The translations under genes were made by a program, and so were the position numbers. Source: Lunularia cruciata (lineage: Eukaryota; Streptophyta; Marchantiopsida; Lunulariales; Lunulariaceae). Taken from it: a stretch of DNA of 64,000 nucleotides. The DNA is taken from the NCBI GenBank assembly GCA_948567375.1, contig OX419755.1, positions 53,710,291 through 53,774,290 of the forward strand, written 5' to 3'. The notes below the pieces were generated by a model. That model had not been told where the DNA came from, searched no databases, and saw nothing but the letters and a program-made list of their open reading frames with translations. Shown here in pieces: positions 14,809-61,148 of the stretch; positions within the stretch are counted from its first letter, which is position 1; each line of letters starts with the position of its first letter.

Positions 14809-15105
<297 letters not shown>

Positions 15106-16324: not shown

Positions 16325-17660
16325 GACGTCCTCATCGCCAGTGAAGCTGCAAATTCCTGGATGGTTGTCTGTGCATTCTGGAGATGAAAAAGAGGTTCCT
16401 ATGTTGCATCATGAAGAGGATACCCTTTCCAAAGGACCTTGTACTCCGTATGTTGATGACGGTCCCCTTGAACCTGGCGACGCACAAGGATATGATCAAC
16501 TTTGCAGTCCTCATGATCATTGATAGGGATAAGAAGAGTTGGAGGTTGGACTTAAGAGGAAAAAAAAGGGGTGAGGAACAAAGGGTTTCAACTTGGAAAC
16601 ATGAAAGACATGATGGATACGCATGTGACAAGACAAGGCAAGTTGATAAGCAATAGGAGAGACAATTTGGGTGATATCAAAGGGTCTTATCCAATTAGGG
16701 GCAAGTTTACACACTTAGGTATCAAGTGAGAGAGAGAGGTTACTAAAGGATAGCATGACTTTATCACCAACTTCAAAGGTGAGATCACAACGATGGTGGT
16801 CCGCATATTGTTTTTGGTGATTCTGAGCAACAAGGAGGTGAGAATTGGCTTGTTGGAGAGATTGGGATATAGTGGTCAAGAATGTGGAAGTATGAGGAAC
16901 CTGAGATGCAGGGGGAGCAAGAAGAGAATCTAGAACAAGCGGATCTTGGCCAAAATGTAGAAAGAAAGGAGAGAATCCGGTGCTTACCTCTTTGGAGTTG
17001 TTGTAGGCAAATTTTGTAGCTGCAAGACATTCATCCCAATTAGTATGGTGGACATTGACAAAGGCACACAACATATCCTCTAATGTACGATTTGCATGTT
17101 TGGTTTGTCCATTAGTTTGAGGATGATGGGCCGTGGACAAAGTAAGCTTGGTGCCGAGTATTTGGAAGAGTGCTTGCCAAAACTTCCTGGTAAATCAAAG
17201 ATCACAGTCGGAGATGAGTACATGTGGCATCCCATGATGCTTGAAGACATTGTTGAAGTAGATTTGCGCTAAGGTTGGAGCATCCATGGTATAATAGGTT
17301 GGTGCCAAGTGGATTTGCTTCCTAAGCTTATCCACAAACACCATGATTGTGGTGTGTCCTTGTTTTGTCTTTGGCAAGGATGTAATAAGATCCAAGCTCA
17401 CATGCTCCCAACGAGCGGATGGAATGGCAAGTGGTTGAAGGAGTCCACTCGGCTTCTGGTTGCTGGCCTTGTTACGTTGGTAGCTCTCACATGATCAGAC
17501 AAATTCTCAAACATCTTGTGTCATGTTGGGCCACCACCATTGACGTTGGAGGGTACCCAAGGTCTTGTCCACACCCATGTGACCAGCGATGGGTAAATCA
17601 TGGGCTTCTTGAAGGCGCACAAGTCAAAGATCACCTTTAGTTGGAACATAGATCTGGTCC
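16325..17660 (-). pseudogene. Element D integrase with chromodomain, decayed
   Basis: Integrase core segments lie at 17195-17401 (SLDLITSLPKTKQGH, VFVDKL, FKHHGMPHVLISD) and 16715-17140 (MSTAHHPQTNGQTKHANR, EDMLCAFV, WDECLAATKFAYNNS). The C-terminal segment at 16517-16714 (FDITQIV...MRIHHVFHVSKLKPF) is a GPF/Y-type module. At about 16325-16510 a chromodomain follows (VDHILVRRQVQG...EYKVLWKGYP). Two losses are clear: the catalytic Glu of the D,D-35-E triad is Lys (codon AAA) in GQTKH, and the conserved Trp of the chromodomain is TAG. In the N-terminal zinc-binding part the second Cys is Tyr. Confidence 0.88.
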
Positions 17661-17974
17661 TCATGGAATAAAAGGCCCTCCTTGATGGAGAAGGTGTTGT
17701 ACTCCTTATTGCATGCCGTAAGGCGACCATGTACTATTTAGAAGAAGAGATCTTGGTGTAGAGCTGAATGAAACTCGTTTTGGACCTTAGAGTCAACTGA
17801 CATTGTTGAAATTGCCGTTGTGATGAGAGGAAGAGACTTCAAATTAGGTCGTCGTGATAAAGCATCAGCGATGATATGGAACCAACCTAGTTTGTACTCA
17901 AGTTTGATGTCATATAGTTGGAGTTGTTCCTCCTATCGATGATGTCGACTCTTCATGTGTTCCAAGTGTAAGGT

Positions 17975-19110
17975 CTACAACAATGGTTTGTGATCAGTTT
18001 GCATGATCACTTGTTTCTCCAAGAGGTAATGCCTCCATGCCTTGGTGGCATATACCATTGCAAGTTGTTCTTGATCTCGAGCAGAGTGGTTTTGTTCAGC
18101 CATATTGAGTCGGCGAGACACAAAGGCAATAAGGATGGAGTCCATCTGGGGATTCTTGTTGCAACACGACTCCAATTGCAAAGTTAGAAGCATCAAAATC
18201 AATCACACAGGGTAGTTGATGATCATATGATTGAAGAATGGGTCTTGAAGACACTATATGCTTTAACTTCTAGAATGCTTCTTCATGCTTGGTGGTCCAT
18301 TGGAAGCTTGAGTTCTTTTCCAAGAGGTCAGTCAATGGTGCAACCACATGAGCATAATAATGGATGAACCATTGATAAAAATTGGCCAATCCATTGAATG
18401 CTCGTACTTCTGTAGCATCCTTTAGAGTAGGCCAATCAGTAATGACCTTAATTTTCTCTTCTTCCATCTTGATCCCCTCTAATGAGATCTTATGACCCAA
18501 GAAGGTAACCTCCTTCTGCCAAAAGGCACACTTTGGCTTCTTGCAGTAAAATTTCCATTGTTGTAATCGCCTTAGGACTTCTCGCACATGATTCACATGT
18601 TCTACCTATGTCTTGCTGTAGATTAAGATATCATCCAAGAACAACACTATAGACAGATCCGATAGTCCATCCAACACCCGATGCATCTGATCTATGAAGA
18701 TTGCTGGAGCATTAGTGAGTCCCAAAGGTAGAACTCTCCACTCAAAATGCCCATACCTGGTGCAAAAGGCAGTCTTTTGCACATCTTCTCTATCAATAGG
18801 AATTTTCCAATAACCGCTACAAAGATCCAACTTGGAAAAGTAGCGTGCTCCACTTAGTTGATCAAGCAAGTCATTGATCCGAGGCAAGGGATATGCATTC
18901 TTCACGGTTGGCTTATTGAGCCCATGATAATCAATATAGAAACAAAGTCCTCCATCCTTCTTTGGAAGAAATAGTACCGGTGCTCCCCAAGGAGAGGTAC
19001 TAAGTCGCATGAAGTCCTTCTATAACAACTATGTAAGTGTTGTTTGCAACTCCTCCAACTCCTTTGGTGAGAGCCGATAGATCGGTCTACTCACTGGAGT
19101 ACTCCTTGGC
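17975..19110 (-). pseudogene. Element D reverse transcriptase and RNase H, decayed
   Basis: Reverse transcriptase at 18606-19010 keeps [36 protein letters not shown] and the catalytic [11 protein letters not shown]. The connection and RNase H start lies at 18270-18596 (WKFYCKKPKCAFWQKEVTFL, VRAFNGLANFYQWFI). RNase H at 17975-18202 shows SRRLN...NHSARDQEQLAMVYA and QTDHKPLL. A stop separates the domains at about 18605. The codes for transcriptase and RNase H are otherwise well kept compared with the rest of the element. Confidence 0.9.
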
Positions 19111-19607
19111 AATAGCTCAATCTTGAAGGGCATACCTTGATCAGAGTGTAATCCCTTTGGCAAATCATCCAGAAACATGTCCACAAACTCCTTAACAATC
19201 CAATCAACCATTGCTTGATGAGGCTCTTGGCCCTCTACAAATTTTTCTTGTGCAATCGGCTTGATCCACATTGCAAATACAGACTTATCTTCTTCTAAAG
19301 CTTGCTCTATGGCCGCTTTACTAACAACCTTCCCTTCTAGGGACTCTTCTCTCTTCCAAGCTTGCTCCATGGTTACCTTCTTGGCAAAATTCTCATCTTG
19401 GGACTCATCTCCTTGCCAAGTTTGCTCTATGGCTACCTTCTCAATAGACTTCCCATCTTGGGATTGACAATTCTTAGGTGTCTTACTTAGAGGTGCCAGA
19501 TAACCTAATAGAAGATTCCTACCTTGGTATTGTACTTGAATTTGGCATCGGGTCCAATCAAATTGAACCTTATGATATTCAAGCCAAGGTACCCAAAATG
19601 ATATCAT
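19029..19607 (-). pseudogene. Element D protease-RT spacer with three 20-residue repeats
   Basis: Between protease and reverse transcriptase lies a charged segment of three tandem units: SQDGKSIEKVAIEQTWQGDE, SQDENFAKKVTMEQAWKREE and SLEGKVVSKAAIEQALEEDK (about 19280-19480). It continues into FVDMFLDDLPKGL and LPRSTPVSRPIYRLSPKELE, the usual entry to a Ty3/gypsy reverse transcriptase. The same triple repeat is present in element E at 51357-51560, so it was part of the ancestral polyprotein. Function is unknown; the units look helical and highly charged. Confidence 0.8.
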
Positions 19608-19899
19608 AGTGTAGAGGTGCCACTACAAACCTCATACACTCCAAATACTCCTTCCTAATCTTGAAGGTAATAAGATGCAAGGTGCGGAATGCAGAACCCT
19701 TTCTACCATCCGCTATCATCAAACTACTTCCAATCATTGGCTTGATATGAATACCCAATTCCTTTGCTATTTGCATAGACATGCAATTCTTTGAACTTCT
19801 AGAATCAACCAAAATCCTACAACCCCGATTAGATATTGTACCTTGCAAGTGAAGCAAACTTGCATAGGTCGAGTTTTCAATCCCATTAGAACTAATCAA
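19579..19899 (-). pseudogene. Element D aspartic protease, decayed
   Basis: Aspartic protease-like fold: LLHLQGTISNRGCRILVDSRSSKNC, then AKELGIHIKPMIGSSLMIADGRK (written here in parts), and the terminal HYDIILG motif. The catalytic Asp-Ser/Thr-Gly is Asp-Ser-Arg, so the enzyme is expected to be dead. Element E has Asp-Phe-Gly at the same place. Confidence 0.75.
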
Positions 19900-20002
19900 G
19901 CTCCCAGTAGCAGCTCAAAATCTCCTACTGGGATTCTTTGTTTCCCTGATCATTTCGCTCTACAACCTCCACTTGGGCAACTTGTCAAGGTCGTCCATTC
20001 TT

Positions 20003-20519
20003 GAGTGGACATTCAGCAATGTGATGCCCCAATTGGCGACAATAAAAACAACCACCATTTTGTTGCAATTTCTCCTATCTGCCATGCCAAGTGGTCTTTG
20101 TTGAATGGCACCAATCTCCATTGGTGCTGGCTCCTCCACTGTGTGTAGTGTATTGTCAGGCTTTGTGGATGTCGAGGTTGAGGCCAAGTTGTTGCCACTA
20201 AGGAATCAAAACGTTCGGCCAACCGCATGGCTTCCTCCACGTGTTGTGGCTCTCGCATAATTGCCTCTAATTTGGTTTTTGCCTTCAAGCCCCTCACAAA
20301 TCAATCCAAAGCTTCACCTTCCAATATATCTAGAATTTGCATGATGGTGTTTTGGAACTTAGTGATGTAACTTCTTACAGAGCCAATCTGTTTCAACTTT
20401 GCCAACTTATCCCGTGCAGCTTGTGTGGCATTTATAGCTTGGAACCAACTAATTATTGCACTCTTTAATTCTGCCCATGTCAAGATTGGTGCAACTATTT
20501 GACGTTCAGCTCGCTTCAC
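20003..20519 (-). pseudogene. Element D gag with intact CCHC knuckle
   Basis: The capsid-like part (20301-20519) shows WAELKSAIISWF, KLAKLKQIGSVRSYITKF and ILEGEALD, typical of the plant retrotransposon gag family. The next piece (20013-20297) has RGLKAKTKLEAI and EEAMRLAERFDSL. The zinc knuckle at about 20003-20045 is CFYCRQLGHHIAEC, a complete C-X2-C-X4-H-X4-C. Frame changes separate the pieces. Confidence 0.85.
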
Positions 20520-21085
20520 TCAAAATCTCCACCATAGCTTTGCTACTCCATCCAATTGGCTAGAAGCCAAGAGAATCTATTTTTGTTTGTCTTGTAGATT
20601 GGTAGCTTCAAAATAACATTACAATCAAACACAAAATTTTCCACTACACCTAGAAGATTCTTGCCTTCAAATACCTTGGGTTTAGGGAATCTAATCTGAT
20701 CTTCTCCTTCTTGAATTGGTACTCTCTCTACGTGCTCCTATCGTCAAAGATCTCATTCATCCAACAATTGGGTAAGGTGCTCAATTTGTTGCTACATAGC
20801 AAGGATAACCTTGGGCATTGCCGCCATGGTTGCTACTCTATCTAACCACCCTTAATCTATCAAATTTACTATCACATAGAAATAGCATGTCCACCATTCT
20901 CCATAAGTTACAATCGGAAGCACCAAGGGTTCCTCAAATATGGTGATCATATGTATAAAATCTTGTCCAAAGTGCGAGGTGATGAATTGTGTGAAATGAT
21001 GCTTGGGTAGTATTTGAATGAAAAAATACCAATGGTTTGGCGGAAGTGGATTTGGTGGTCCATAAATTCCATCCATCCCATTCAT

Positions 21086-39616: not shown

Positions 39617-39629
39617 ATTTGAATAATGG

Positions 39630-39730
39630 GGCTTAGCCCCATGTTACCTTTTTTTTTGTCTCTCCCTTGTACGGCTTGATGGGGTCTTCCCATCCTTCAC
39701 TTTTCCTACACGGTCGCCTTTTTTCCTTTC
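39630..39730 (+). mobile_element. Short SINE-like structured repeat, copy 1
   Basis: A 101-bp insert begins GGCTTAGCCCCATGTTACC and contains CTCTCCCTTGTACGGCTTGA and TGGGGTCTTCCCATCC. It is bracketed by a perfect 13-bp direct repeat ATTTGAATAATGG (39617-39629 and 39731-39743). The flank continues into repeat R. A related site without the insert lies at 2617-2629 (10 of 13 bases the same). The repeat can fold into GGGGCTTAGCCCC (partly using the flank) and GATGGG-GTCTT-CCCATC hairpins. Confidence 0.75.
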
Positions 39731-39742
39731 ATTTGAATAATG

Positions 39743-39820
39743 GAAGCAGAAGCCATTCATATAGAGCGGGGTATCCATAACACACTTTAGGACTGAACTG
39801 GACACATGCATATTTGAGGA
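39743..39820 (+). repeat. Dispersed repeat R, third copy
   Basis: AGCAGAAGCCATTC followed by GGGGTATCC, ACTTTAGGAC and TGCATAT boxes matches the tandem pair at 2630-2750 with gaps. It directly abuts the SINE-like insert, which appears to have landed in this repeat. Confidence 0.55.
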
Positions 39821-40104
39821 ATGAAATAAACTGTTTATGGAAAAGCAGTTTATGGAAAGGATGATCCAAATCCCACTTATGAAGGGACTTGACGCAAGAT
39901 AGTAATGCAAGAAATGCAAAAAGTACATGCAAGAAGAAATGCAAATAAGCTCGAAGAAGTGCAGGAAAAGAGGGAGAATAAATAAGCAAAGACAGAGTAA
40001 GATCAGTGTTAGAGGATAGAAGAAACAGAAGAAACTTCTATGATAGCCGAGACCAAGAATTCCCATTCCTACTCTGCCTATTGGTACGTAGGGTTAGCAG
40101 GAGC

Positions 40105-40225
40105 ATCCCCGACGGGGGGCCCTGCGGGCTGCCGCCGGGTCTGATACTCTGATACCGCCCGTCGGAAAGTCCGGCCTTCGGCCCTCCGGGGCTCGCTGAA
40201 CGTCCCTCTTGATCTGGTTCAGCGT
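40105..40225. other. Compact GC-rich segment with several perfect stems
   Basis: In otherwise AT-rich DNA this segment is strongly GC-rich and contains nested inverted repeats. CCGACGGG (40109-40116) pairs with CCCGTCGG (40158-40165) and encloses GCCC-TGC-GGGC (40119-40129). Next comes GGCC-TTC-GGCC (40173-40183), then CGCTGAAC (40194-40201) with GTTCAGCG (40217-40224). This looks like a structured RNA or a fold-back element. I could not match it to tRNA, rRNA, hammerhead or HDV-type motifs. Confidence 0.5.
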
Positions 40226-41878
40226 CTCTTTTCATACATCAACAAGAATATGCAACATGAAGAATGACTTCGATAGAAACATAGAATTCATGACTTCCTG
40301 ATTCTCGGTATCAAAATATTAATGACTCCCCGAATCTCAGACATAGGTTATGAAAAAAAAAAACCCTGTCAAGAATAACGAAAGGAAAAACAAGGGAAAG
40401 TCTGAAATGTGGCAAAAATATGATTCGACTGGAGAGTGTGTATGCCTTCATGCACTAATAAGAAAGGAGAAAACAAGGAAAACATTAAGAAAAAGGGACG
40501 AACTGTTATAGGAAATATGTCACTTCATGCAATTCGGTGCATGAACACATCAAACCCACAATACGGAAAGCAATCATGATAAAACTGCACTAAAGCAGTC
40601 CGGAGTTCATCAACATCCACGAGGTGTCGGAATAACTGAGTAATGCCATTATCGAGTTTCTCTTCGAATACTCAGAAGTGCCTCGAGCTTTCAAACCGAA
40701 TTTTATTACCGAATTTCAATTGTTTTCTTATGAATCGACAAATACTCTATGCTTCATCGATATGTGTTGGTAAAGGTTAATAGAACCTATGTCTAAAGTG
40801 GAGCAACGGCCAACCTCTTACTCTCTCTGAAAAATAACATGTTAAACTCGTATCCATTGTCTACCCGTTGGGTTATTTAATAGCCTCCTTGTGGGACAGA
40901 GGAGTTCGGGTCTATACAAATCGTATTTGTTGTGATTTGATCCGAAACCACATTAAATGAATTTGACATTCTCGTCCACAGCATTGCTTAAGGGAAACAA
41001 CCCAGTATAGGAGAGAAACGCAAACAAAAGTAGCCGGCCGGACAGAAAGGAAGGATAGAACACTGACCGCATAGGACAGAAAGGAAGGATGCAATTTTCA
41101 CGTCTGCAAATTTGCAGGATGACTTTCCCGGTGTCTTTGCTTCCATGTTTAGATGAATGGAGCACGTCGCGACCAAGGAGATGTGACAAGCAACATAATG
41201 AGGACCTCAACAAGAAAGAAGCTCACCTCATCTATTGCCAGCACCTGCACTACCACCAGAGGGATTGGGCTCACTCATTCCATTTCCACGACATGAAAAT
41301 GTTTCTTTTGACACCCAGTTCTGGGGTTGACTACTGTGTATGGAATTAGTTTCCTTGAGACAAAAGAACAAAGAGCTTGACCTCACCATGTCTTCGTCAC
41401 GATAGACACATGATGAAGTTCTCCTTGCCTGCCAATCTATCTCCCACTGTCTGCTCCCGTTCCTATGCTGATCCCTTCAACTCCTCATTCCAAACGAAGA
41501 TCCGCTCCAATTGGATTGTCAGGACAGCAGATTCTGCTTCTTGACATACAGCGAGATACTGTACAGGGAACTTCTACTGTTCTCTCACTGTGCACGGTAC
41601 CCATGTTCTCCATCTCATCTCACTCTTCCCCCACCCAGTTTGAGACTTGGGTATGCTGAATCGTTCTCACTCTTGGTATTTCTAGGTGTCTTTCTGGAGT
41701 TGTAAGATCTGAGGTAGTTTCGTGCAGTCATTTGTGGTAGGCGTGATACGGTGGTGGTGTAAGTGCTGCGGTGGAGCCGGCACGTCACGTGATGTTCGTC
41801 ATTGGTCGTGAGGGCGCCTGTTCACGTGAAGAACGGATCTCAAGATTAAGTTTCATTCTCCAGGGATATTAGATGATT

Positions 41879-41986
41879 AAAGTACAAGGGCGACCGCTTA
41901 GAAAAAACGAAGGAGGGGAAGACCCCATCAAGCCGTACAAGGGAGAGACGAAAAAGGTAAAATGGGGCTAAGCCCCAATTATGCCC
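41879..41986 (-). mobile_element. Short SINE-like structured repeat, copy 2
   Basis: A 108-bp insert on the minus strand contains GGGGCTTAGCCCCATTTTAC, CTCTCCCTTGTACGGCTTGA and TGGGGTCTTCCCC, as in copy 1. It is flanked by a perfect 25-bp direct repeat, 41854-41878 and 41987-42011 (starting CATTCTCCAGGGATATTAG). The long, variable duplication length (25 against 13 bp) is typical of LINE-type target-primed insertion and unlike DNA transposons or LTR elements. Confidence 0.82.
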
Positions 41987-43110
41987 CATTCTCCAGGGAT
42001 ATTAGATGATTCAGGTTTCTCTGATATTAGAACTTTTGAATAAAGAAGAGGAAGCATGAAATGGTGATGGCAATGAAATCTTCCGTCGATAGCAAGGATT
42101 GTCTAGAAAGGCTTCAGCGCACATGGCCAGATTATGTGGTTTACCTGAACCTGTGACTCATGAACTCGAAGACGAAAGTCCTCCGCGTCACTATTGTGCC
42201 AAGATTTGCATATGCATTGTTATGTTTGTACTGCCGAAACTTGAGTCAGCTTTAGTCACAGTTTGAGCGGAAAACTTGAAGTTCTGTTCAAATATGATAA
42301 TGAGGTGGCTTTTTAAGGTTTCAGGATGGTTCATGGGGGGAGGTCTAACGACCTTGACTTGGCTGATTATGTCAATATCTATTCGGTTCTCGTGGTCAGC
42401 AACTGAAGCGTGAAAATACGAACCTTGTCCCTCTTAATTCTTTTATACCGGAAAGAAAACCGTTGTTAAAATTATGGACTGCATATCCCGTTCGTGCAAT
42501 GGTTCGTGTTTGGAACGGTGGATGGTATGAACTCGTGATTGGCATGCTGAACTGTAGGCCCATAATCCGGACCAACTGGTACAATGGCCAGTCTCGTCAC
42601 ATGTACAAACTAATCTCTGAGAATCCAAACTTATAGCTAGTGTGAAGCTGTACCCGCTGGTAACTAAACAACCAAACTGGAGGCAGAAGATGAATAACTT
42701 TTAACTCAGGACGTAGTTCAACATAGTCTGCAATTCAAACGAGCGGGGAAAACTATACCAAATAAGGAGGCGCAATAACTTAATGTTGAAAAGTATCGAA
42801 GACGGAAACTGGTGGCAGAAAACAATTTTCTTGACCCCAAAGCCAAAGCGTGGGCACTTGAACACTCCAAACTCTTTGATCACTCGGGACAACATTAGCA
42901 AAAAGTCGGAGTGAAGTCTGACATGACAAAGAGCTGTTGCCATGAACTTAGTCGTCTGTAACCAGAGGTTCGACAAGAAGACCTCGCCCTTGTACTTGGT
43001 TATCACAGGGGTCATTCTCAGAATAGCAACCCAGTCATCTGTCATTCAGCGGGAAAAGTTCCAGTAAGCAAATGACTTGCGGATTGGCCACAATTCACAT
43101 ATAAGTGTAA

Positions 43111-44013
43111 CTAGCGCTTATCAAAACTCAGTTTTCCTAGTGGTTTGAGCTGCATATGGTCGTTGTCCGAGTCCATATTGACAGCATCGTAGCCCCCCCT
43201 TCTGTATCCTTGTAATCTAGCGACCAACCCAAGGGCAAAAACACCAAAAACCACGACCAGTGTAACGTGACAATTGAAGGCAAATCCCATAAGGCCCTTC
43301 GCCCGCAGCTTTGCCTCGTCCAAATCACATTGAGTGGATCCATTAACTCCGCCAGGTAGATCAAGTAGGCGGTGGCAGCCCTCCGGAATAAAATTCTCCA
43401 TGTACAGTGACATACCGATTTGGAACAGCCAAGTTCCTTGCAGGAGCAGTGACATGCAGAACACGAAGTCCACAAAAAATGCTCTTGGCTGCCAGGCCAA
43501 TAAGAATGCACAAACGCCACTAACACCAATGACGAACGACAGAAGCACATAGCACTTCCCTTCTAAACCGGCATTTTCAGCAGCCTCTTGACCTATAACG
43601 GTCAACTCCACCAGGAACGCCAGTCCGATGAGCACAAAAGGTAACTCGTAAGGCAGAGGTAGTGCTGATGTTGATTCACTCAAAAGCACCAGCGCAGCAA
43701 ACAGCCAGAACATCAGAAGAACCACAGAATGCTGAAAGCTAGCAATTCGATAAACAGGAATAATCCCATCCTCAAGGGGAGCAAAACTTGTAGAAATTCC
43801 GAGCTCATAGAAGATGGCCAGAGGAATGGTTACTAATAACACGTAAAGCTCCAAACTTCTCAGTCTCCCGGATACAAACGGTACAGGTTGCCATGCTCTC
43901 GCACAATAGTCCCGAGGATGTCTGAGGTAACTAACGGATGCAGAAAATAGATGCCATAATCCAAAGGTGAAGAAGAAGAAGGCAGGTATGAGGTGCCCTG
44001 TCAACGTTCCCAT
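43111..44013 (-). CDS. TMEM45-like (DUF716) multi-pass membrane protein
   Basis: A single uninterrupted frame of 300 codons. It starts MGTLTGHLIPAFFFFTFGLW, the typical N-terminus of the TMEM45/DUF716 family with a conserved His and Gly in the first membrane segment. Further hydrophobic segments include SLELYVLLVTIPLAIFYELG, QHSVVLLMFWLFAALVLL, ELPFVLIGLAFLVELTVIG, CYVLLSFVIGVSGVCAFLLA, FFVDFVFCMSLLLQGTWLFQ and VTLVVVFGVFALGLVARLQG, about seven in all. Family signatures HS (QHSVVLLMFW) and QGTWLFQIGMSLY are present. The hydrophilic C-terminus is short (DAVNMDSDNDHMQLKPL). Length fits the family. Plant members have been linked to stress and viral responses, but the biochemical role is unknown. 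No intron interrupts the coding part; the gene looks intact. Confidence 0.93.
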   Translation of the reverse strand: MGTLTGHLIPAFFFFTFGLWHLFSASVSYLRHPRDYCARAWQPVPFVSGRLRSLELYVLLVTIPLAIFYELGISTSFAPLEDGIIPVYRIASFQHSVVLLMFWLFAALVLLSESTSALPLPYELPFVLIGLAFLVELTVIGQEAAENAGLEGKCYVLLSFVIGVSGVCAFLLAWQPRAFFVDFVFCMSLLLQGTWLFQIGMSLYMENFIPEGCHRLLDLPGGVNGSTQCDLDEAKLRAKGLMGFAFNCHVTLVVVFGVFALGLVARLQGYRRGGYDAVNMDSDNDHMQLKPLGKLSFDKR

Positions 44014-46646: not shown

Positions 46647-47930
46647 ATGAGTTCTTGTATCAATTAACGGATTTGTATAATATCCATAAATACGTTAAAT
46701 CTTATTATAGATAACAAAGGACTATTGGGGCCTAGCCTCATTTTACGTTTTTTTCTCTACCTTGTACGGCTTGATGGGGTCTTCCCATCCTTCATGTTTT
46801 CTATGTAGTTATTCTTTCCTACTCGATAACGGAAACTTGATATTTCCACACCTCACTTCGATCCAATGGCTTCCATTCGCCATCGAGACCACCCATCTTT
46901 GTCATTCGTGAGATCAATGTCACTTTATTTATTTATTTATATTAGGGGTGTGGAATATCAATTGCCTAGACAATTAAAGATGTCCATACTAACTTTCATA
47001 CTTAGAAATCAAACTTGTTCACTTCCACAACAATAATAAGATAATAAAAAAGGTAAAGTTCTCTATAAAAGGAGAAATTTATTCTTAGAACTTCCATAAA
47101 GTATAAATTATGAAATTATATAATACTGTATAATTATATGAAATATGAAATATATGAAACATATTGAATTTCTATTCTAAACTTTGCTATTTACTCTTTA
47201 AAAAAGCATCTAAGCAAAGATTTACATGCTTCTTTTTGAAGAGTGAATAGTTAGCAAAATTTATGATCATAAATGCAGTATCTTGATACTGATGAGTTCT
47301 TGTATCAATCATATCATTCTACAGATTTGTATAATCTCCATAAATATGTTAAGTTTTAATATAAATAACGGGACTATTGGGGCCTAGCCCCATTTTACCT
47401 CTTTTGTCTCTCCCTTGTACGGCTTGATGGGATTTTCCATCCTTCATATGTTCTATGTAGTCATTTTTTTCATCGTGATAATAGAAACTTGATATTTTGA
47501 CATCCCCACTTTGATCCAATGGCTTCCATTCGCCATCGAGACCACCCATCTTTGTCATTTGTGAGATCAATGTCACTTTATTTATTTATATTAAGGGTGT
47601 GGAATATCAATTCCCTAGAAACTTAGAGATGTCCATACTAACTTTCATACTTACAAATCAAACTTGTTCAATTCCACAACAATAATAAGATAATAAAAGA
47701 ATATGAAGTTCTCTATGAAAGGAGAAATTTTATTCTTAAAACTTCCATAAAGTATAAATTATTAAATTATATATACTGTATAATTATATGATATATTTAA
47801 CACATTTAATTTCTATTCTAAACTTTGCTATTTACTCTTTAAAAAAGCATCTAAGCAAAGACTTACAAGCTTCATTTTGAAGAGTGAATAGTTAGCAAAA
47901 TTTTAAAAGATAAATTAATCTAAACCTAAG
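46647..47930 (+). repeat. Diverged ~640-bp tandem duplication, each unit with a SINE-like copy
   Basis: Unit 1 (46647-47290) and unit 2 (47291 to about 47930) align along their length, both starting GATGAGTTCTTGTATCAAT and both containing CAATGGCTTCCATTCGCCAT and GAAGAGTGAATAGTTAGCAA. Each carries a copy of the SINE-like repeat at its left (about 46728-46840 and 47376-47470). These copies are also flanked by a degenerate direct repeat (GATAACGG and similar), so the insertion predates the duplication. Confidence 0.85.
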
Positions 47931-49745: not shown

Positions 49746-50299
49746 AAGAATGGGATGGATGGAATTTACGGACCACCAAATCCACTTTCACCAAACCATT
49801 AGGATTTTCATGTCCAAGTACTATCCAAACATTTTTTTCACACAATTCATCACCTCATCCTTTGGACAAGATTTTTTGCATATGATTAGCATATCTGAGG
49901 ACCCCTTGGTGCTTCTTGGTTGTAACTCATAGAGAACGGTGGACGTGCTGCTTCTATGTATTAATAAATTTGATAGATTAGGAGTGACAGGATAGAGTAG
50001 CAACCATGGCGGCAATACCCAAGGTTATCCTTGCTATGTAGCAACAAATCAAGCACCTTACCCAATTGTTGGATGAATGAGATCTTTGATGACAAGAGCA
50101 CGTAGAGAGAGTACCAATTTGAGAAGGAGAAGATCAATTTTGATTCCCTAAACCCAAGGTATTTCAAGGCAAGAATCTCATGTGTGTAGTGGAGAATTTT
50201 TTGTTTGATTGTGAATGTTATTTTGAAGCTACTAATCTGCAAGACGAGCAAAAATAGATTCTCTTGGCTTCTAGCCAATTGGATGGAGTAGCAAAGCTA

Positions 50300-50860
50300 T
50301 GGTAGAGATTTTGAGTGGAGTGAGTTGAACGACAAATTTTTGCACCAATCTTGACATGGGCAGAATTCAAGAGTGCAATAGTTAGTTGGTATCCAAGCTA
50401 TAAATGCCACACGAGATGCATGGGATAGGTTGGCAGAGTTGAAACAAATTAGCTCTGTAAGAAGTTACATCACGTAATCCTAAAACACCATCATGCAAAT
50501 TCTAGATATATTGGAAGGTGAAGCTCTAGATCAATTTGTGAGGGGCTTGAAGTCAAGAACCAAATTAGAGGTAACCATGCAAGAGACACAACACTTGGAA
50601 GAAGTCATGCGGTTGGCCAAACATTATGATTCCTTGGTTGCAACAACTTGGTCTTGACCTTGACCTCCACATAACTTACCAATATATTACACACATGTGG
50701 AGGAGCCAACATCAATGGAGATTGATGCCATTCAACACAGATCACTTGGCATTGTAGATAGAGAGAAATTGTGCCAAAATGGTGGTTGTTTTTATTATTG
50801 CCATTTGGGACATTGTATTGTTGAATGTCCACTCAAGAATGGGCAACCTTTACAATTGCC
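50300..50860 (+). pseudogene. Element E gag, decayed
   Basis: The frame is broken but matches the D gag order. The zinc knuckle at about 50787-50830 reads CFYYCHLGHCIVEC, with the second metal-binding Cys of the D copy replaced by Tyr (TAT). Confidence 0.75.
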
Positions 50861-50932
50861 TAGATAGGTAAAGTAGAACAATCAAGGAAACAAGAGATCC
50901 CAATAGGAGATTTTGAGTCGCCTAATGGGAGC

Positions 50933-51600
50933 TTGATTAATTCTAATGGGATTGAAGGCTTGACCTATGCAAGTTTGCTTCACTTGCAAGGTATGATATC
51001 TAATTGGGGTTGTATGATTTTGGTTGATTTTGGAAGTTTGGAGAATTGCATGTCTATGGAAGTAGCAAGGGAATTGGGTATTCCTATCAAGCTAGTAATT
51101 GGAAGTAGATTGATGATGGCGGATGGTCAAAAGGGTTCTGCATTCCATATCTTGCATCCTATTACCTTCAAGATTGGGAAGGAGTATTTGGAGTGTATGA
51201 GGTTTGTAATGACACCTCTACACTACGATATTATTCTAGGACTACCTTAGCTTGAATGTCATAAGGTTCAATTTGATTGGACCTAACAACAAATTCAAGT
51301 ACAACATCAAGGTAGGAATTTCTGATTAGGTTGTCTGGTACCTCTGAGTAAGACACCTAAGAATAGTCAGTCCCATGATGGGAAGTTTGTCGAGAAGATA
51401 GCCATAAAGCAAGCCTTGAAGGGAAATGAGTCCCAAGATGGAAGTTTGCCAGGAAGGCAACCATAGAGCATGCTTTGAAGAGAGATGAGTCCTTAGATGG
51501 GAAGTTTGTTAGTGAAGCAGCCATAGAGCAAGCTTTGGAGGAAGATAAGTATGTATTTGCGGTGTGGATCAAGCCAATTGCACAAGGACAATCAAAGGAA
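50933..51600 (+). pseudogene. Element E protease and triple-repeat spacer, decayed
   Basis: Protease-like part at 50933-51250 (LLHLQGMISNWGCMILVDFG, ARELGIPIKLVIGSRLMMAD, HYDIILG) with Asp-Phe-Gly at the active site. It is followed at 51357-51560 by three charged ~20-residue units homologous to those in D. A frameshift lies in the middle unit. Confidence 0.78.
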
Positions 51601-51639
51601 AGCCAAGAGCCTCATCAAGCAATGGTTGATTAGATAGTT

Positions 51640-52500
51640 TAGGAGTTTGCGGACGTGTTTCTGGATAATCTGCCAAAGGGATTACCCTCTAATTGTGATA
51701 TGCCCTTCAAGATTGAGTTATTGCCTGAGAGCACTCCAATGAGTAGACAAATCTATTGGCTCTCACCAAAGGAGTTGGAGGAGTTGCAAACAAGACTTAC
51801 GGAGTTATTGGAGAAGGATTTCACACGACATAGTACCTCTTCTTGGGGAGCACCGATTTCACACACCGAGTACCTCTTCACCAATTGTTCCAAAGAAAGA
51901 TAGAGGACTTTGGTTTTGTATTGATTACCATGGGCTCAATAAGAAAACAATGAAGAATGCATACCCCTTACCTCAGATTGATGACCGGCTTGATCAACTA
52001 AGTGGAGCACAATACTTTCCAAGTTGGATCTTTGTAATGGCTGTTGGCAAATCCTCATTGATAGGGAGGATGTGCAAAAGATTGCCTTTTTCACAAGGTA
52101 TGTGCATTTTGAGTGTAGAGTTCTACCTTTTGGGCTCACTAATACTCCAATAGTCTTCATGGATCAGATGCATTGAGTGTTGGATGGACTATTTGATTGG
52201 TACATGGTGGTGTTCTTGGATGATATCTTAATCTATAGCAAGACATACAAAACACATGAATCATGTGAGAGAAGTCTAATATGACTATGACAATGGAAAT
52301 TTTATTGCAAGAAGTTGAAGTGTGCCTTTTGGTAGAAGGAAGTCACCTTCTTGGGTACAAGATCTCATTGGAAGGGATCAAGATAGAAGAGCAGAAAATC
52401 AAGGCCATTACTGATTGGCCTACGCCAAAGGATGCTGCAAAAGTACGAGCATTTAATGGATTGGCCAACCAACTGTTCATCCATTATTATGCTTATGTGG
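51640..52500 (+). pseudogene. Element E reverse transcriptase and RNase H start, decayed
   Basis: The RT entry reads FLDNLPKGLPSNCDMPFKIE and [20 protein letters not shown], then SSWGAPI. After frame breaks come [20 protein letters not shown] and a catalytic VFLDDI box at about 52210. The 52281-52500 piece (SLEGIKIEEQKIKAITDWPT, VRAFNGLANQ) runs into the insertion point of element F. Confidence 0.85.
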
Positions 52501-53253
52501 TGTAATACTCCGAGGATAGGAGACCTGAAGAGAAATACACCATGAGAAACACACACTTTCACACTCAAACTCCAATGCCCCAAAGGAGCACCTTCTCTTT
52601 ATTAGATAGGTAAAGCGGATCTCCTCCAATGAAGCTCCACCATAGGATTAGGTACATAGATAGGTGACATGTTAGCAAGCTCCACCCTTGGATTACTTAC
52701 TCGGATGGGTGACATGTTGGTCCTGGTCCTATCTGGTTGGTCAAACAAGCTTTGACCGGAGGGAATCTTTTAGGGAATCTTCCTATAGGAATCTCAAAAT
52801 CATGTGGATGAGGTACCATTGGAAAGCTCTCGACAAGACAAAGCAAGGGGGAGGAAAGGCCAGCCTTTACTCAATTGGGGGGGGTCAACACATTTTCAAG
52901 GCCTAATTCATCCGTTTAGGCCTCCAAAATTGCCTTCAAAGATTTCAAGTATATTTTGGTTCCAACTCTATTAGTAGAAGTCCCCTTTTGGTGATATCTC
53001 TTTTTGATCTATTCATTCCATCTTGTGTAACATCCTTCCAGATGTTACCAACCCAATTCTCACCTTCAAATCATATTTCTAGCTATTGGTTCTAAGGTTT
53101 TCAAATCTATTTTGGTTTTCTACACTATTAGTAGAAGTACCTTTTTGGTGATACTTCTATCTGATCTATTTTGGCCATCATGTATAACATCATTCCACAT
53201 GTTACCAAACCAAATTTCACATCTAGATCATATGGCTAGCTCTTGGTATTACA
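52501..53253 (-). repeat. 3' LTR of element F
   Basis: 753 bp, minus-strand ends TGTAATACC and AGTATTACA. It differs from the 5' LTR at scattered positions and lacks the 8-bp insertion found near the 5' LTR start. Confidence 0.92.
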
Positions 53254-53289
53254 AACCTCACTCCTTTTAAGACGCAACGTCCTCGTTGT

Positions 53290-54637
53290 GCAACTGTTGC
53301 TCAAATGCTTGCACCAACACCGGTGCATGTGTCAAATTGGCAATGGGTTCCTAGGTTGCTTCATAGAGGGGGTAACCTTTCCACTGGACAAGATAATCCA
53401 CCCGTGGATGACGAGTACCACGCATGCATTTTTGGAGAATATGCTCCACCTCATATTCCTCGATGCCATCAACGAGTGTCAGACAAGGTCAAATGTCTTG
53501 TGTGGAATGACCCAAGCTTGATCGGAGAGCATATCTACGTAGTAGGGAAACATGGAACACTAGATGAATCTTCATGTGTGGTGGTAGCTCAAGGTGATAG
53601 GCCACAACGCCGACTTGACGGAGAATTGAGAAAGGCCCAATAAAACAAGGTTTGAGCTTACGAGATCCCACTAATGTGAGGTTGGTTGTTGATAGTCACA
53701 CATGATCCCCAACATTGAACTCCATGTGCCTACGGTGTGCATCAGCATACTGCTTTTGGCAATTTTGTGCAATCTATAATTTGTGCTTAGCGCTCTCCAT
53801 CCCTTGTTGAATTCTAGAAACAAATGTGTTGACTGCATCGACCTTAATAGCCACCGGATGGATCTTCATCAAGCTGGAAGGTGTGAAGGGATGCTCACCA
53901 TACATGAGGAAGAACGGAGTGACCTAAGTGGATGCATTCACTAAATTGTTGTAAGCAAATTCCACCAACGGAAGTAGGGTGTCCCACCTCTCTTGCTCTT
54001 CTAAGGTGAAGCCGCGTAATATGTCTTCAATAGTGCGATTAGCCCGCTTGGTTTGTCCATCTATTTGTAGGTGGTAAGCTGTGGACATGGCCAACTTGGT
54101 CTTGAAGAAACCAAAGAGGGTGTGCCAAAACAAACTGGTGAATTGAGTACCCCTATCGGTGATGAGTTCTCGAGACAAGCCATGGTGAGAGAAGACTGCA
54201 TCTAAGTATAATTGAGCAAGTTGTGGAGCGGTCACCTCCTTGGTGGTAGGGCGTACATGAATCATTTTGCTAAGCCGGTCCACAAAGACCACAATGGAGT
54301 CAAATCCTAATGTGGTCTTGGGTAATTCACAGACAAGATCCATACACACCTGTTCCCAATGTTGTGTAGGAGTAGGGAGAGGTTGCAGGAGCCCTACAGG
54401 AGCTTGATAAGAAGCTTTGTTCTGTTGACAAAGTAAGCAACTACGCATGTAGTCCATCACATTGTTGCACATCTTGGGCCAATAGTAATGGCACTGGACT
54501 GTATCCAAGGTCTTGTCCACTCCAACATGACATGCAATGGCCAAATCATGACATTCCGCTAGAATGGTGGTGCGCAATTCTAGGACATTTAGAATCCATA
54601 ATCTTCCATCACAAAAGATGAGTCCTTGGGTGCTCAT
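53290..54637 (-). pseudogene. Element F integrase with chromodomain, nearly open
   Basis: 53924-54637 is open for 237 codons. Zinc-binding part: CHDLAIACHVGVDKTLDTVQ, then CLLCQQNKASYQ. Core: MDLVCELPKTTLGFDSIVVF, DRLSKMIHVRP and LSRELITDRGTQFTSLFW with both catalytic Asp. The Glu of the triad is Lys (AAG) in DGQTKRANR. The GPF/Y module is at 53489-53671 (LKPCFIGPFSIL, VAYHLELP, KIHLVFHVSLLRR). The chromodomain at about 53290-53460 reads VEHILQKCMRGTRHPRVDYL and VQWKGYPLYEAT, then TAG at the position of the conserved Trp. Confidence 0.9.
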
Positions 54638-54799
54638 GACACCTTTGGATGATTGCTCTTCTACAATCTATGGATCAATTTTTGTAGCCGCCAAAATTTC
54701 TAGCCAAAATTTAGGGTTAATCTGAACCTCTACCACCAAGTTATTTGCCATTGGCATGCGGGTGAATGCATCTGCAAGTTGCTTTTTCCCTTCAACATA

Positions 54800-56097
54800 G
54801 GTGATTGTCATGTTGAAGCGTTGTTGCCACTCAAATCTAGCGACGAGTTAGATCCTTTTGCATCTTGAAGTAGACTAGAGGTTTGTGGTTTGTCTCTAGC
54901 ACAAATGCCTTCTCGCCCAGATAGTGCTTCCAATGCTTGCTTGCTAGGACGATGACCAACTCTTCTCATTCTGTGGTGTGGTAGTTGCGCTCTACTGGTA
55001 ACAAATTTTGAGAGAAATATGCAATGGGATGCCATCCGTCATGCCACTCTTGTTGTAGGACTACTCCGATTGCTACGCCTGATGCGTTTATATTAACTTG
55101 ATTGGACGTTTTGGGTCATACCACTTCAAGATTGGTGCATGTAGCAAGGCGGCTTTCAATTCTTGAAAGGCCAACTCTTGTGTGGTTCTCCATGTCCACT
55201 TCTTCTCCTTGCCAAGCAGTGCTGTTAAAGGTTGTGCAACCTTGGAGAAGTCCTTGATAAATCAACAATAGAATCCCGTCAAACCCAAGAAGCTCTTGAG
55301 TTGAGTCTGATCTTTTGGGGCACTCCATTTTTGAATGACCTCTATTTTATTTGTCAATACTTGAATACCCTTTACACTTACTCTATGCCCCAAGTAGTCT
55401 ACTTAAGACTTGCCAAACTCACACTTTGAGATTTTGGCATACAATCGATTTTGTCTTAGAATCTGGAGGACTTCTTGTAGATGTTGTTTGTGTTCCGTCA
55501 TCGTGCTACTATATATTAAGATATCATCCAGGAAGACGATGACATACTTATCCAAATATGGACAAAATATGTCATTCATTAAACTCATGAAAGTGGCAGG
55601 TGCATTGGTGAGACCAAAAGGCATCACAAGATACTCGAAATGGCCATACCTAGTTTGAAAGGCAGTCTTGTACACATCCTCCTTTGTAATTTGGATTTGA
55701 TTTTAACCGCTCCGCAAATCTAGTTTGGTGAAGTGTCTTGCTCATTGAGTTGATTGAATAGATCATCCATGCGTAAGGGATATTTGTTCTTCACTGTTTG
55801 CTGATTGAGACCCCGATAGTCAATGCACATGCACATTGTACCGCCTTTCTTCTTCATAAACAAGACCGGAGCCCCATATGGTGATACGCTGGGTTGGATG
55901 AACTCTTTTTGCAGCATATCCTCAATTTGATTCTTGCACTCCTCCAACTCATGAGGTGATAGGCAATATGGGGCCTTACAGGGAGGTGTCTTTCCCAGAA
56001 GTGTCTCAATTTTATGATCTATTCTCCTTTTTGGTGGTAATCCTAAGGGTAGATCATTAGGAAAGATATCTTGAAACTCATTTACAACATCCTTCAA
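54800..56097 (-). pseudogene. Element F reverse transcriptase and RNase H, decayed
   Basis: RT N-terminal half at 55720-56097 ([68 protein letters not shown]). After a frameshift and stop, 55403-55675 gives [33 protein letters not shown] and the intact [11 protein letters not shown] catalytic box. RNase H at about 54850-55030 shows VERNYHTTE, a stop, then EELVIVLASKHWKHYLGEKA. Confidence 0.88.
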
Positions 56098-56130
56098 TTT
56101 CTTAGGAATTTGTCCCTTAGGTTGTGCACT

Positions 56131-56583
56131 CTAGACTTCTCTTATTAGACCCATGAAACACCTATTAGTCTTACAAATAGTTGTTGTCCCTATGACATAC
56201 AGAGGCAATTCTTGCCTATGTGGTTTTTCTTTTACCCCAATGATCGACCATTGGTGGGTTCTCACTACTTTCTTCTTCCAATCTACTATAGGGTTGTAAT
56301 GCTCCATCCATGGCATACCTAAGATTGCATCATAACGCGCTAATTGTATCACTTGCCACTCAATTACTTCTTGATATTTTCCTATAGAGAGTGTTACCCG
56401 CCTGGGTAATAATTCAATCCTCTCTATTTGTCTGTTAGGTAACTCTACTTCTTCACTCTCATCTCTCTCTAGATCCATTCCCAATCTTATTGCAATAGAG
56501 CGAGACAAGAAATTCTTTGTGGCTCTCGGATCTATTATCACTCTCACTTGATTGCCTTCTAGGACCCCTTTCACTACAATCAA
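56131..56583 (-). pseudogene. Element F aspartic protease, open frame, active site lost
   Basis: Open for 150 codons. KGVLEGNQVRVIIDPRATKN has Asp-Pro-Arg where Asp-Ser/Thr-Gly is needed. FLSRSIAIRLGM, ATKNF and YDAILGMPWMEHYNPIVDW are typical of plant Ty3/gypsy proteases. Confidence 0.82.
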
Positions 56584-56678
56584 TTGTGAGGTTGCCTTTC
56601 GGTACCTTTGTGTGCTCGTCTTACTCCTTCCCTTGCTTTTCTACTTCCTTATTGAGCCAGTAAGGCCACGAGGTACAT

Positions 56679-57698
56679 TTACTGGCGATCTTCATTTTCC
56701 AAAGTGATTTTCACCTCCTCCTCTTTAGTGTGTCTCTCCATGTTGTTCAAAGATTGCCTGTATGAAGGTCGAGGGCATCTGGGAGGTCGAGGGCCTTTGT
56801 TGGTAGATACATGCCAAATACGACCACAATTGTAACAATGGCGTTGTTCTCCTTGAGTTCCTTCTCCTCGGGGGACTTCATCTCTCTGTTCTTCTACCCG
56901 TCCTCGTTCTCCTTGAAGCAATCATGCTCCTTGGTCTTGAAACCAAAGGTTGCCCAGTTCCATCGGTATTGGTCTACCCATGGGTGGCATTTCTGCCCAA
57001 TAATGTTGAGGTGGAACTACTCCTTCACCTCCACCTAATGCTCCTACTATTCTTTGTGCAACAAGCAATGGCTTCAAATATCGTGCAAAGATTTTGTACC
57101 ATGACTTCTTGGTGAATCCGCTCCCTCAACTCTCGTTTGAAATTGTCAAGAGCCTCTACTAGACTCATATCAGTTATTGTGACTTGTAGATCCAGAAATG
57201 CCTCCATATACTCTTGTATGCTGTTCTTTTGTTTCAATCCCCATAGTCGGATCCGGACCATCTGCATAGAATCCACCGATTGGAAATTCTTTAGCAATCC
57301 TTCTTGCATTGCTATCCATATGACCTCCCTTCTCTTGACCAACATGGATCGTTCCCAAGCGTCGTACCATGTGAGGGCTTTATCGATCAAGTACCCACAT
57401 GCAAACACGCATGTAGCATGCTCGGTGGTCTCTATTGAGAACAACCAAAAATATTGATTCATTCTTGAGATCCAGTTCTCCACTACCCCCATCGTACGCT
57501 GCACTTGTAAGGCTTGATGTTGTAGGTCTTCTCCATCCAGAGTAGTAATGTGGCTTCATCATTGATAGGGTTTGTAGGCACGGGTGCCTCTCCAAGTACT
57601 TCAGTCACAAGTATCGGATTTTGAGACGGCTCTTCTTCTTGTATTGCTTGATCATTCCTGAGGGTCTGCACTTGACTTTGTAACGCCTCCATGGTCAT
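56679..57698 (-). pseudogene. Element F gag, decayed
   Basis: 57483-57698 begins MTMEALQSQVQTLRNDQA, the probable gag start about 650 bp after the primer site. 57025-57504 carries the gag fold (WISRMNQYFWLFSIETTEHA, LIDKALTWYDAWE, LRLWGLKQKNSIQEYMEAFL-like text). The knuckle at about 56805-56840 reads CYNCGRIWHVSTNK, with the last Cys replaced by Lys. A frameshift lies near 57490. Confidence 0.85.
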
Positions 57699-58338
57699 CT
57701 TAATCTCTCAAAATTTGTTCAACATCCCCTGCATTCCTTGCACCAACTCTTGCACCTGCAGATCCATGGTTCCTATAACACTCGATTGCTATACTCTAAA
57801 ATTCAATAGAGAGTTAATATGATCAATCTGGAGGGTGCATGAACTATTGGAACAACCATTGGGACCTCAGAAGCTACCACTTGTTGGTAATATTCCTCAC
57901 CAAAATTCCTGACCACGAAATCTCTAAACATCACTTTTGGTCTCACTACATAATGAATTTCTACTTGAGTGTTAAAAGAAAAAGGATTTGGGACATTCAA
58001 ATCTATCACAACAAAATGTGAATTGTCAAATCCCACTCTCTATCGTAAATCACTACAGGCAAAATCACTTGGTTTGGCAAATTCATTATTGTATCCATGA
58101 ACTCTGCTCCAAAGTGAAAAACCAAATACACTTCTCACTTGATCGTGCTGAATGTACATAATCTTGATGTTGAATGGATTCAAGGATGGAAAGCAAGGCA
58201 TTGGATATTGTCCTCCCGGAGTATCCATTCTATCCTCCTAATCTACCAATTACACCAAAATGTCTCTCCTCAAAATTACTCAGTCTCAGTAGCCCATGTT
58301 CTTCCAAGAGGGGTGATCCGCTCTCTTGGGCAACACTT

Positions 58339-59115
58339 ACTCTGATACCATTGTAACACTCCGAGGATAGGAGACTTGAAGAGAAACACACCATGAGAAA
58401 CACACACTTTCATACTCAAACTCCAATGCCCCAAAGGAGCACCTTCTCTTTATTATATAGGTAAAGTGGATCTCCTCCAATGAAGCTCCACCATAGGATT
58501 AGGTACATAGATAGGTGACATGTTAGCAAGCTCCACCCTTGGATTACTTACTTGGATGGGTGACATGTCTGTCCAGGTCCTATCTAGTTGGTCAAACAAG
58601 CTTTGACTAGAAGGAATCTTTTAGGGAATCTTCCTGTATGAATCTCAAAATCACGTGGGTGAGGTACCACTGGAAAGCTCTCAATAAGACAAAGCAAGGG
58701 GGAGGGAAGGCTGACCTTTAGTTAGTTGGGGGGGGGGCAAACTGCATATTTTTGAGGCCTAATTCATCCATTTAGGCCTCCAAAATTGCCTTCAAAGATT
58801 TCAAACATATTTCGGTTCCAACTCTATTAGTAGAAGTCCCCTTTTGGTGATACCTCTTTTTGATCTATTCAGTACATCCTTTGTAACATCCTTCCAGATG
58901 TCACCAACCCAATTCTCACCTTCAAATCATGTCTAGCTAGTGGTTCTAAGGTTTTCAAATCTATTTTGGTTTCTTGCACTATTAGTAGAAGTACCCTTTT
59001 GGTGATACTTCTATGTGATCTATTTTGACCATCATGTATAACATCATTCCAAATGTTACCAAACCAAATTTCACATCTAGATCATATTGCTAGCTCTTGG
59101 TATTATGGCTGTACA
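58339..59115 (-). repeat. 5' LTR and primer-binding site of element F
   Basis: 764 bp. The minus-strand start reads TGTACAGCCATAATACC, an 8-bp insertion relative to the 3' LTR start. The LTR end is followed by one base and TGGTATCAGAGT, complementary to initiator tRNA-Met with one change. Confidence 0.9.
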
Positions 59116-61148
59116 TGTGGCTGCACCATTAATTGACCTCTTGGGGAAGAACTTGAGCTTCCAGTGGACCACCAAGCATAAAGAAGCATTCCAAAAGCTG
59201 AAACATATGGTGTCTTCCAAGACCCATCCTTCAACCATATGATCCTCAACTACCTTGTGTGGTTGATTTTGATGCTTCTAACTTTGCAATTGGAGTAGTG
59301 TTGCAACAAGAATTCCCAAGTGGACTACGTTCCATCGCCTTTGTGTCTTGCCGACTAAATACAACTTAAAGAAATTACTTTACTCGAGATCGGGAACAAC
59401 TTGCAATGGTATATGCCACCAAGTTATGGAGGCATTATCTCTTGGGGAAATAAGTGATCATGCAAACTGATCACAAACCATTGTTGCAAACCTTACACTT
59501 GGAACACATGAAGAGTTAACATCATCGATGGGAGGAGCAACTCCAATTGTTTGACATCAAACTTGAGTACAAACTAGGTTGGTTCCATGTCATCCTTGAT
59601 GCTCTATCATGACAACATGATTTGAAGTCTCTTCCTCTCATCATGGCGGTAATTACAATGGTGGCAATTGACTCCAAGGTCCAAAATGAGTTTTGGTCAG
59701 CTCTACAACAAGATCTCTTCTTCCAAATGGTACATGGTTGTCTTACAATAGGAGACAAGGAGAACAACACCTTCTCTTTCAAGGAAGGCCTTCTATTCCA
59801 TGAGGACAGGATCCATGTTCCAACCAAAGGTGATCACCGACTTGTGCATCTTCAAGAAGCCCATGATTTACCAATAGCTGGTCACATGGGTGTGGAAAAG
59901 ACCTTAGGTACCCTCCAATGCCAATGGTGTTGGCCCAACATGACACATGATGTTCAATAGTTTGTCCAATTGTGTGAAAGCTGCCAATGCAATAAGGCCT
60001 ACAACCAGAAGCTGAGTAGACTCCTTCAACCACTCTCCATTCCATCCACTTGATAGGAACATGTGAGCTTGGATCTCATCACATCCTTGCCCAATACAAA
60101 GCAAGGACACACAATAATTGTGGTGTTTTTGGATAAGCTTAGTAAGCAAATCCACTTGGCACCAACCTTTGATACCATGGATGCTCCAACCTTAGTGCAA
60201 ATCTACTTCAACAATGTCTTCAAGCATCATGGGATGCCATGTATACTCATCTCCGACCGTGATCCTCAATTCACTAGGAAGTTTTAGCAAGCACTCTTCG
60301 AGATGCTTGGCACCAAGCTTACTTTTTCCATGGCCTATTATCCTCAAACTGATGGACAAACCGAACATACAAACTGTACCTCGGAAGATATGTTGCGTGC
60401 CTTTGTCAATGTCTACCATACCAATTGGGATGAATGTCTTGTAGTTGTAGAATTTGCCTACAACAATTCCAAATAGGCAAGCACCGGATTTTCTCCTCTC
60501 TTTCTCAATTTTGGCCAAGATCCATTTGTTCTAGATTCTCTTCTTTCTCCTCCCCCATCTCAGGTCCCTCATACTTCAACCTTCTTGACCACCATCTCCC
60601 AATCTTTCCAACAAGCCAAATCTCATTTCCTTGTTGCCCAAAATTGTCAGAAATGATATGCGGACCACCATCATGGTGATCTCATCTTTGAATTCAATGA
60701 TAAAGTCATGTTATCCTCTAGTAACCTACTCCTCCCACTTGATACCCAAGTTTGTAAACTTGCCTCTAATTGGATATGACCCTTTGATGTCACCCAAATT
60801 GTCTCTCTTGTTGCTTATCGACTTGCTTTGCCTTGTCATATGCATATCCATCATGTCTTTCATGTTTCCAAGTTGAAACCCTTTGTTCCTAACCCCTCTT
60901 CTTTTTCCTCTCGAGTCCAACCTCCTCCTCCTCTTGTCCCTATCAATGATCATGATTGTATCCTTACGTATCACCACATTCAACAAGACCATTGACAACA
61001 TATGGAGTACAAGGTCCTTCGGAAAGGGTATCCCCTTCATGATGCCATAGGAGAACCTCTTTCTCATCTCTAGAATGCACAACTAGCCATTCAAGAGTTT
61101 GAAGCTTCATTGGCAACGAGGACATTATCAACTAGCGGTGGGGTAATA
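59116..61148 (+). pseudogene. Element E RNase H, integrase and chromodomain, decayed
   Basis: RNase H text resumes at 59116 and runs to about 59600. Integrase zinc part at 59622-59960 (HLQEAHDLPIAGHMGVEKTL) with CESCQC after a stop. Core at 60063-60287 (MSLDLITSLPNTKQGHTIIV, HHGMPCILISDRDPQFTRKF) and 60290-60476, where the catalytic Glu is kept (DGQTEHTNC). A chromodomain relic at about 60930-61110 shows MEYKVLRKGYPLHDA. Stops interrupt every domain. Confidence 0.87.

Follow-up and report, generated by a model that had tools for sequence, protein, structure and literature searches.

The locus and its surroundings

Five copies of a short repeated unit (c1 to c5) were found in the window, that is, in the whole 64-kb stretch of Lunularia cruciata DNA that was analysed, and the sequence evidence on the unit comes from this one stretch. 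Their positions are given in Table 1, together with the direct repeats that bound two of them and the only gene identified near the copies. The DUF716 protein encoded by this gene was 87% identical to that of Riccia fluitans, 83% to that of Marchantia polymorpha and 68% to that of Calypogeia fissa, and because of these identities to liverworts the window was taken to be nuclear liverwort DNA, most probably from a complex thalloid species (Riccia belongs to Marchantiales).

Table 1. Positions in the window of the copies of the unit, their target duplications and the neighbouring gene.
Feature	Position	Strand	Basis
Copy c1	39630-39730	+	sequence inspection and profile search
Copy c2, extends furthest at the GGGGC end	41879-41986	-	sequence inspection and profile search
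Copy c3, within unit 1 of the ~650-bp tandem duplication	46719-46822	+	profile search
Copy c4, within unit 2 of the ~650-bp tandem duplication	47371-47474	+	profile search
Copy c5, decayed	11537-11634	-	profile search
Left 13-bp direct repeat ATTTGAATAATGG, c1 target duplication	39617-39629		exact repeat
Right 13-bp direct repeat ATTTGAATAATGG, c1 target duplication	39731-39743		exact repeat
Left 25-bp direct repeat CATTCTCCAGGGATATTAGATGATT, c2 target duplication	41854-41878		exact repeat
Right 25-bp direct repeat CATTCTCCAGGGATATTAGATGATT, c2 target duplication	41987-42011		exact repeat
DUF716 protein gene	43111-44013	-	Pfam

Much of the remaining window carried Ty3/Gypsy-type fragments (gag, protease, integrase and RVT_1). 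Inverted relatives were found across 16560-20913 and 49920-60904, with 16560-18130 pairing with 59334-60904 at 86% identity and several further stretches of 18.6-20.9 kb pairing, also inverted, with 49.9-52.3 kb. These regions appear to be a pair of oppositely oriented Gypsy-like copies, with about 7 kb interrupting the second. Inside this interruption, the direct repeats 52501-53231 and 58352-59085, about 5.85 kb apart and 93-95% identical in their longest stretches, may be the LTR pair of an element inserted within the second Gypsy-like copy. Elsewhere, an ORF at 1256-1735 on the reverse strand matched the exocyst subunit Sec6 (Pfam, E 3.9e-11), and a GC-rich stretch (40105-40235) was located between c1 and c2 in otherwise AT-rich surroundings. 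A weak Rfam match to mir-3149 (33.7 bits, with a gathering score of 100) adjoined an AT dinucleotide tract at 14883-15014 and is probably a low-complexity artefact.

Copies of the unit

The initial annotation had recognised c1 and c2 by two shared sequence blocks. Both copies lie where it had placed them and both blocks are present, the base that follows the TGGGGTCTTCCC block being C in c2 and not A. The two further copies that it had announced, c3 and c4, were also recovered. The units of the tandem duplication that contains them were identical at 537 of 588 aligned positions, and the two copies were taken as the same insertion event, which brings the count in the window to four events. The core 17-mer of the unit had four exact matches and two matches with three mismatches in the window, with 0.09 expected from shuffles.

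The remaining copy, c5, was found with a profile built from c1-c4. It scored 22.4 bits (E 3.3e-6) after a large bias correction of 19.0 bits, while the controls reached at most 10.4 bits (60 dinucleotide-shuffled windows) and 4.2 bits (the reversed window). Of 91 sites compared with the majority sequence of c1-c4, 30 were changed in c5, 16 of them by C>T or G>A, as is expected in the decay of an old methylated repeat. Pairwise identity was 83% between c1 and c2, 85% between c3 and c4, and 59-64% between c5 and the others. Given this range and the C>T/G>A-rich change in c5, the copies are of different age; c1-c4 diverged from their own majority by only 5-7%. Searching a protein database with the chance reading frames through c1 and c2 returned no match. 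Exact-pattern scans of viral and prokaryotic contigs were also negative, which says nothing about a plant repeat.

Target duplications and flanking sequences

As previously reported for this stretch, c1 and c2 were each enclosed by perfect direct repeats, different in sequence and unequal in length, that are flush with the ends of the unit and make the junctions precise. ATTTGAATAATGG and CATTCTCCAGGGATATTAGATGATT are each present exactly twice in the window. A total of 29 exact repeat pairs of at least 11 bp with a start-to-start spacing of 80-160 bp were counted in the window, the 25-bp pair of c2 being the longest. Sixteen of the 29 pairs, for the most part AT tracts or units belonging to other repeats, reached at least 13 bp (five of exactly 13 bp), and the c1 pair is therefore notable for its position at both ends of the element and not just for its length. 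When compared with 4000 random flank pairs, the c2 duplication was matched by none and the c1 duplication, which was scored as 11 bp in this control as the search halted at the GGGGC core, by 0.7%. The same control gave no significance to the duplications of c3 (39%), c4 (19%) and c5 (50%). The case for retroposition is thus carried by two of the four insertion events, those with clear duplications of 25 and 13 bp. Candidate duplications at c3/c4 (GATAACGG) and at c5 (TCMAATCC) had been picked by eye and post hoc, and were not counted.

The flanks of the independent copies are unrelated, judging from their sequences. In 20 pairwise comparisons of 400-bp flanks against 40 shuffles, only c3/c4 was clearly above the shuffles, on both sides, and the comparison of the c4 and c5 5′ flanks was marginal (32 against a shuffle maximum of 31). 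Apart from the c3/c4 duplication, no larger shared element was found around the copies within the window, which settles for this stretch one of the refuting conditions named in the initial annotation. To the right of c1, the sequence that starts with the target repeat at 39731 was homologous to ~2618-2699 (score 69, with a maximum of 34 in 300 shuffles). No unit was seen at the latter site, and none of the 20 profile matches listed falls there. Because this homology to a unit-free site starts at the 13-bp repeat, the repeat is read as sequence of the original target. The left flank of c1 had no independent homology to this paralogous site, its score of 22 lying within the range of the shuffles (mean 19, maximum 31). 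A diverged low-copy repeat with a AGCAGAAGCC core was located at 2614-2656, 2684-2726 and 39728-39770, and the insertion of c1 lies at its edge.

Mode of insertion

Where long duplications of unequal size bound a short, fixed unit at sites that are unrelated, they are characteristic of LINE target-primed reverse transcription acting in trans, as is established for SINEs. LINE-type insertion, proposed already in the initial annotation, remains the best reading of the unequal long duplications at two independent sites with unrelated flanks. We suggest that this marchantiopsid liverwort contains in the unit a SINE-like retroposon that is non-autonomous, very short (~101-112 bp) and moved by LINE machinery, and put the probability of this reading at about 0.78. 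A small RNA would be copied from one genomic copy of the unit and taken up by the protein of a host LINE. This protein would nick the target, and reverse transcription would be primed from the nick. A second, staggered nick and the fill-in of the stagger would then produce the 13-bp and 25-bp target duplications. Transcription of the unit, an RNA intermediate and a LINE helper are the parts of this scheme that we infer.

In a Pfam scan of all 33 ORFs of at least 110 aa in the window, three matched RVT_1. This domain is common to LINEs and Gypsy elements and does not separate them; from their motifs, we take the three ORFs to be Gypsy-like. No endonuclease domain was detected by Pfam among the 33 ORFs and no partner LINE was identified among them. 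LINEs of the L1 and RTE types, perhaps alongside further families, are reported from M. polymorpha in a methylation study of that species (PMC5784723).

Alternatively, a longer LINE could have contributed the unit as its 3′ end, or the unit could derive from a LINE by internal deletion, the copies being strongly truncated inserts of such a parent. Such inserts would give the same kind of target duplications, and LINE 3′ tails with hairpins are common to partner SINEs in the cases treated in parts of two articles (PMC4176376, PMC3747384). However, truncation should scatter the 5′ ends, whereas the five copies match nearly the whole profile, with ends that agree within a few bases to ~11 nt. With no LINE identified among the 33 ORFs and only the non-specific RVT_1 domain in three of them, we consider this origin unlikely.

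Promoter, RNA structure and ends of the unit

A Pol III head defines SINEs in the strict sense. No tRNA gene was found in the window. The best combined A and B box score of the unit was 12 of 14, in the reverse orientation, which 12% of random windows reach, and 10-11 in the orientation favoured below; a tRNA, used as the control, scored 14. As these scores were not above those of random windows, Pol III boxes were rejected as evidence. Since a Pol III head was sought and not found, we call the unit SINE-like, a label that is supported for this unit of ~105 bases. The absence of a poly-A tail was confirmed, one end being T- or pyrimidine-rich in the five copies, with no pure repeat. This absence is less odd than it had first been made to appear, since a plant SINE and LINE review gives short-T or (T)n tails for Au, p-SINE1-3 and ZmSINE1-2 (PMC3747384, Table 2).

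The two hairpins that had been described are present as sequence. The designation of the unit as a “structured-RNA” retroposon is so far not supported, as no Rfam family matched above chance and covariation was not above that of shuffles. Even at E<=10, Rfam matches to the unit had 8.8-13.1 bits, far below the gathering scores, and those at E 3-8 were rejected as chance. Only one of the 12 hairpin pairs had a double change, and 103 of 500 shuffles did as well. The double change, G-C to A-U, is one that C>T decay would produce; it occurs in c5, and none was found in c1-c4 alone.

These results also bear on the possibility that the copies are retropseudogenes of an unrecognised cellular small RNA, without a self-propagating family. 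In its favour, the two hairpins are kept in most copies (pairing in 57 of the 60 cells across all five, against 43-59% when slid), and folding energy is modestly low on the strand that has the GGGGC hairpin 3′ (z -1.5 to -2.8). Over four copies and both strands the folding z-scores ranged from -0.47 to -2.77, and the hairpins are mildly stable. The 5-7% divergence of c1-c4 from their majority neither favours nor excludes a single parent gene. With Rfam matches at chance level and covariation no better than in shuffles, we regard a retropseudogene origin as quite improbable.

Least likely of all is the relic of a DNA transposon, or a satellite-like unit that recombination has spread, with direct repeats that are coincidental or products of filler repair: c3 and c4 did spread via a tandem duplication, but the repeats of c1 and c2 are unequal (13 and 25 bp) and flush with both ends, the flanks are unrelated, and terminal inverted repeats were above random in none of the five copies (the best, 6 bp in c2, is reached by 15% of random windows), and on account of the unequal repeats and the lack of terminal inverted repeats the MITE and satellite readings were rejected. 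LTR elements have a short fixed target duplication and TG..CA ends; neither was seen, and an LTR reading was rejected.

Orientation of the unit

With the SINE-like reading retained, we lean slightly towards an orientation that runs from the GGGGC hairpin (5′) to the T-rich end (3′). In the five copies the T-rich end lay 13-18 nt past the conserved core, while the position of the GGGGC end varied by 0-11 nt, in a comparison where the ends of c3-c5 rest on non-significant repeats. T-rich tails are also known in Au and p-SINE, from the same part of the plant review (PMC3747384). In addition, if the GGGGC end is 5′, c1 looks slightly 5′-truncated at a short match with its target (AATAATGG in the target, ATAATTGG in c2), which argues for this orientation.

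The opposite orientation, with the GGGGC end 3′, is somewhat less probable. On the reverse strand, the junction on the GGGGC side, outside the unit, reads TT|CC in c1 and TTT|C in c2 (n=2), and this TT(T)|C could be the first-nick motif of that orientation. Runs of at least four T were absent from the GGGGC = 3′ strand in the five copies, and several (4-9 T) were present on the other strand. Internal runs of this length are expected to stop Pol III, which counts against the favoured orientation, and the contrast bears on orientation only if Pol III transcribes the unit. The GGGGC = 3′ strand also gains support from its better folding, its z-scores in c1-c4 (given above) being lower than those of the other strand (-0.5 to -1.8).

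Comparison with known elements

No description of a liverwort SINE family was found in the open-access literature, supplements aside. The main text of the plant SINE and LINE review has no moss, liverwort, bryophyte, Physcomitrella or Selaginella (PMC3747384). In the portions of the sources concerned, SINE appears only as a repeat class in the M. polymorpha methylation study (PMC5784723); DNA transposons, LTRs and MITEs or unclassified repeats are listed for Riccia sorocarpa without mention of SINE (PMC11735767); a comparison of Marchantiopsida mentions unknown, possibly liverwort-specific repeats in Lunularia and again no SINE (PMC9985172); and neither SINE nor SINEs is mentioned for Blasia (PMC13182070). 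An 18-base core string of the unit had no match in the literature. The unit is apparently unnamed and undescribed, and belongs to an ordinary, known kind of element of which few have been described so far in this plant group. A dispersed short retroposon in Marchantiopsida could provide insertion markers for liverwort phylogeny. Its LINE partner, once found, would provide a test of whether recognition by the LINEs of early land plants relied on a specific 3′ structure or on a simple tail.

In the favoured orientation the unit resembles Au, p-SINE1-3 and ZmSINE1-2, as they are characterised in part of the review, in being short, non-coding and dispersed, with a T-rich end and no poly-A. Unlike them, it has no convincing A and B boxes or tRNA head, and its tail is mixed pyrimidine and not pure T; this comparison is with their descriptions. 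The hairpin loop of the unit, GUCUU, may be compared with the 3′ hairpin of ZmSINE2/3 and their L1 partner, which has a conserved UCU in its loop (PMC3747384, in the passage of section 4.3). The CGAG that follows the stem in these maize SINEs is absent from the unit, which has CCTTC instead. SINEX-1, -2 and -4 of Chlamydomonas are likewise SINE-like elements of the green lineage, and their promoter is given as “Unknown” in the relevant part of Table 1 of the same review. They differ in having 3′ tails common with RandI LINEs and in ending in (ATT)n or (CTTT)n.

In the orientation with the GGGGC end 3′, the terminal hairpin of the unit could be a recognition signal like those of the stringent type, represented by eel UnaL2 with its SINE and by zebrafish ZfL2 in the portion of the work that treats them (PMC4176376). 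It is possible, if doubtful, that the unit belongs to a bryophyte retroposon family whose RNA is not derived from tRNA, 5S or 7SL and whose 3′ end, the GGGGCUAAGCCCC hairpin, is recognised by a stringent-type LINE. Were this so, the unit would be among the smallest SINE-like units known, and would directly attest, in a land plant, the ancestral recognition of templates by their structure that has been proposed for plant L1.
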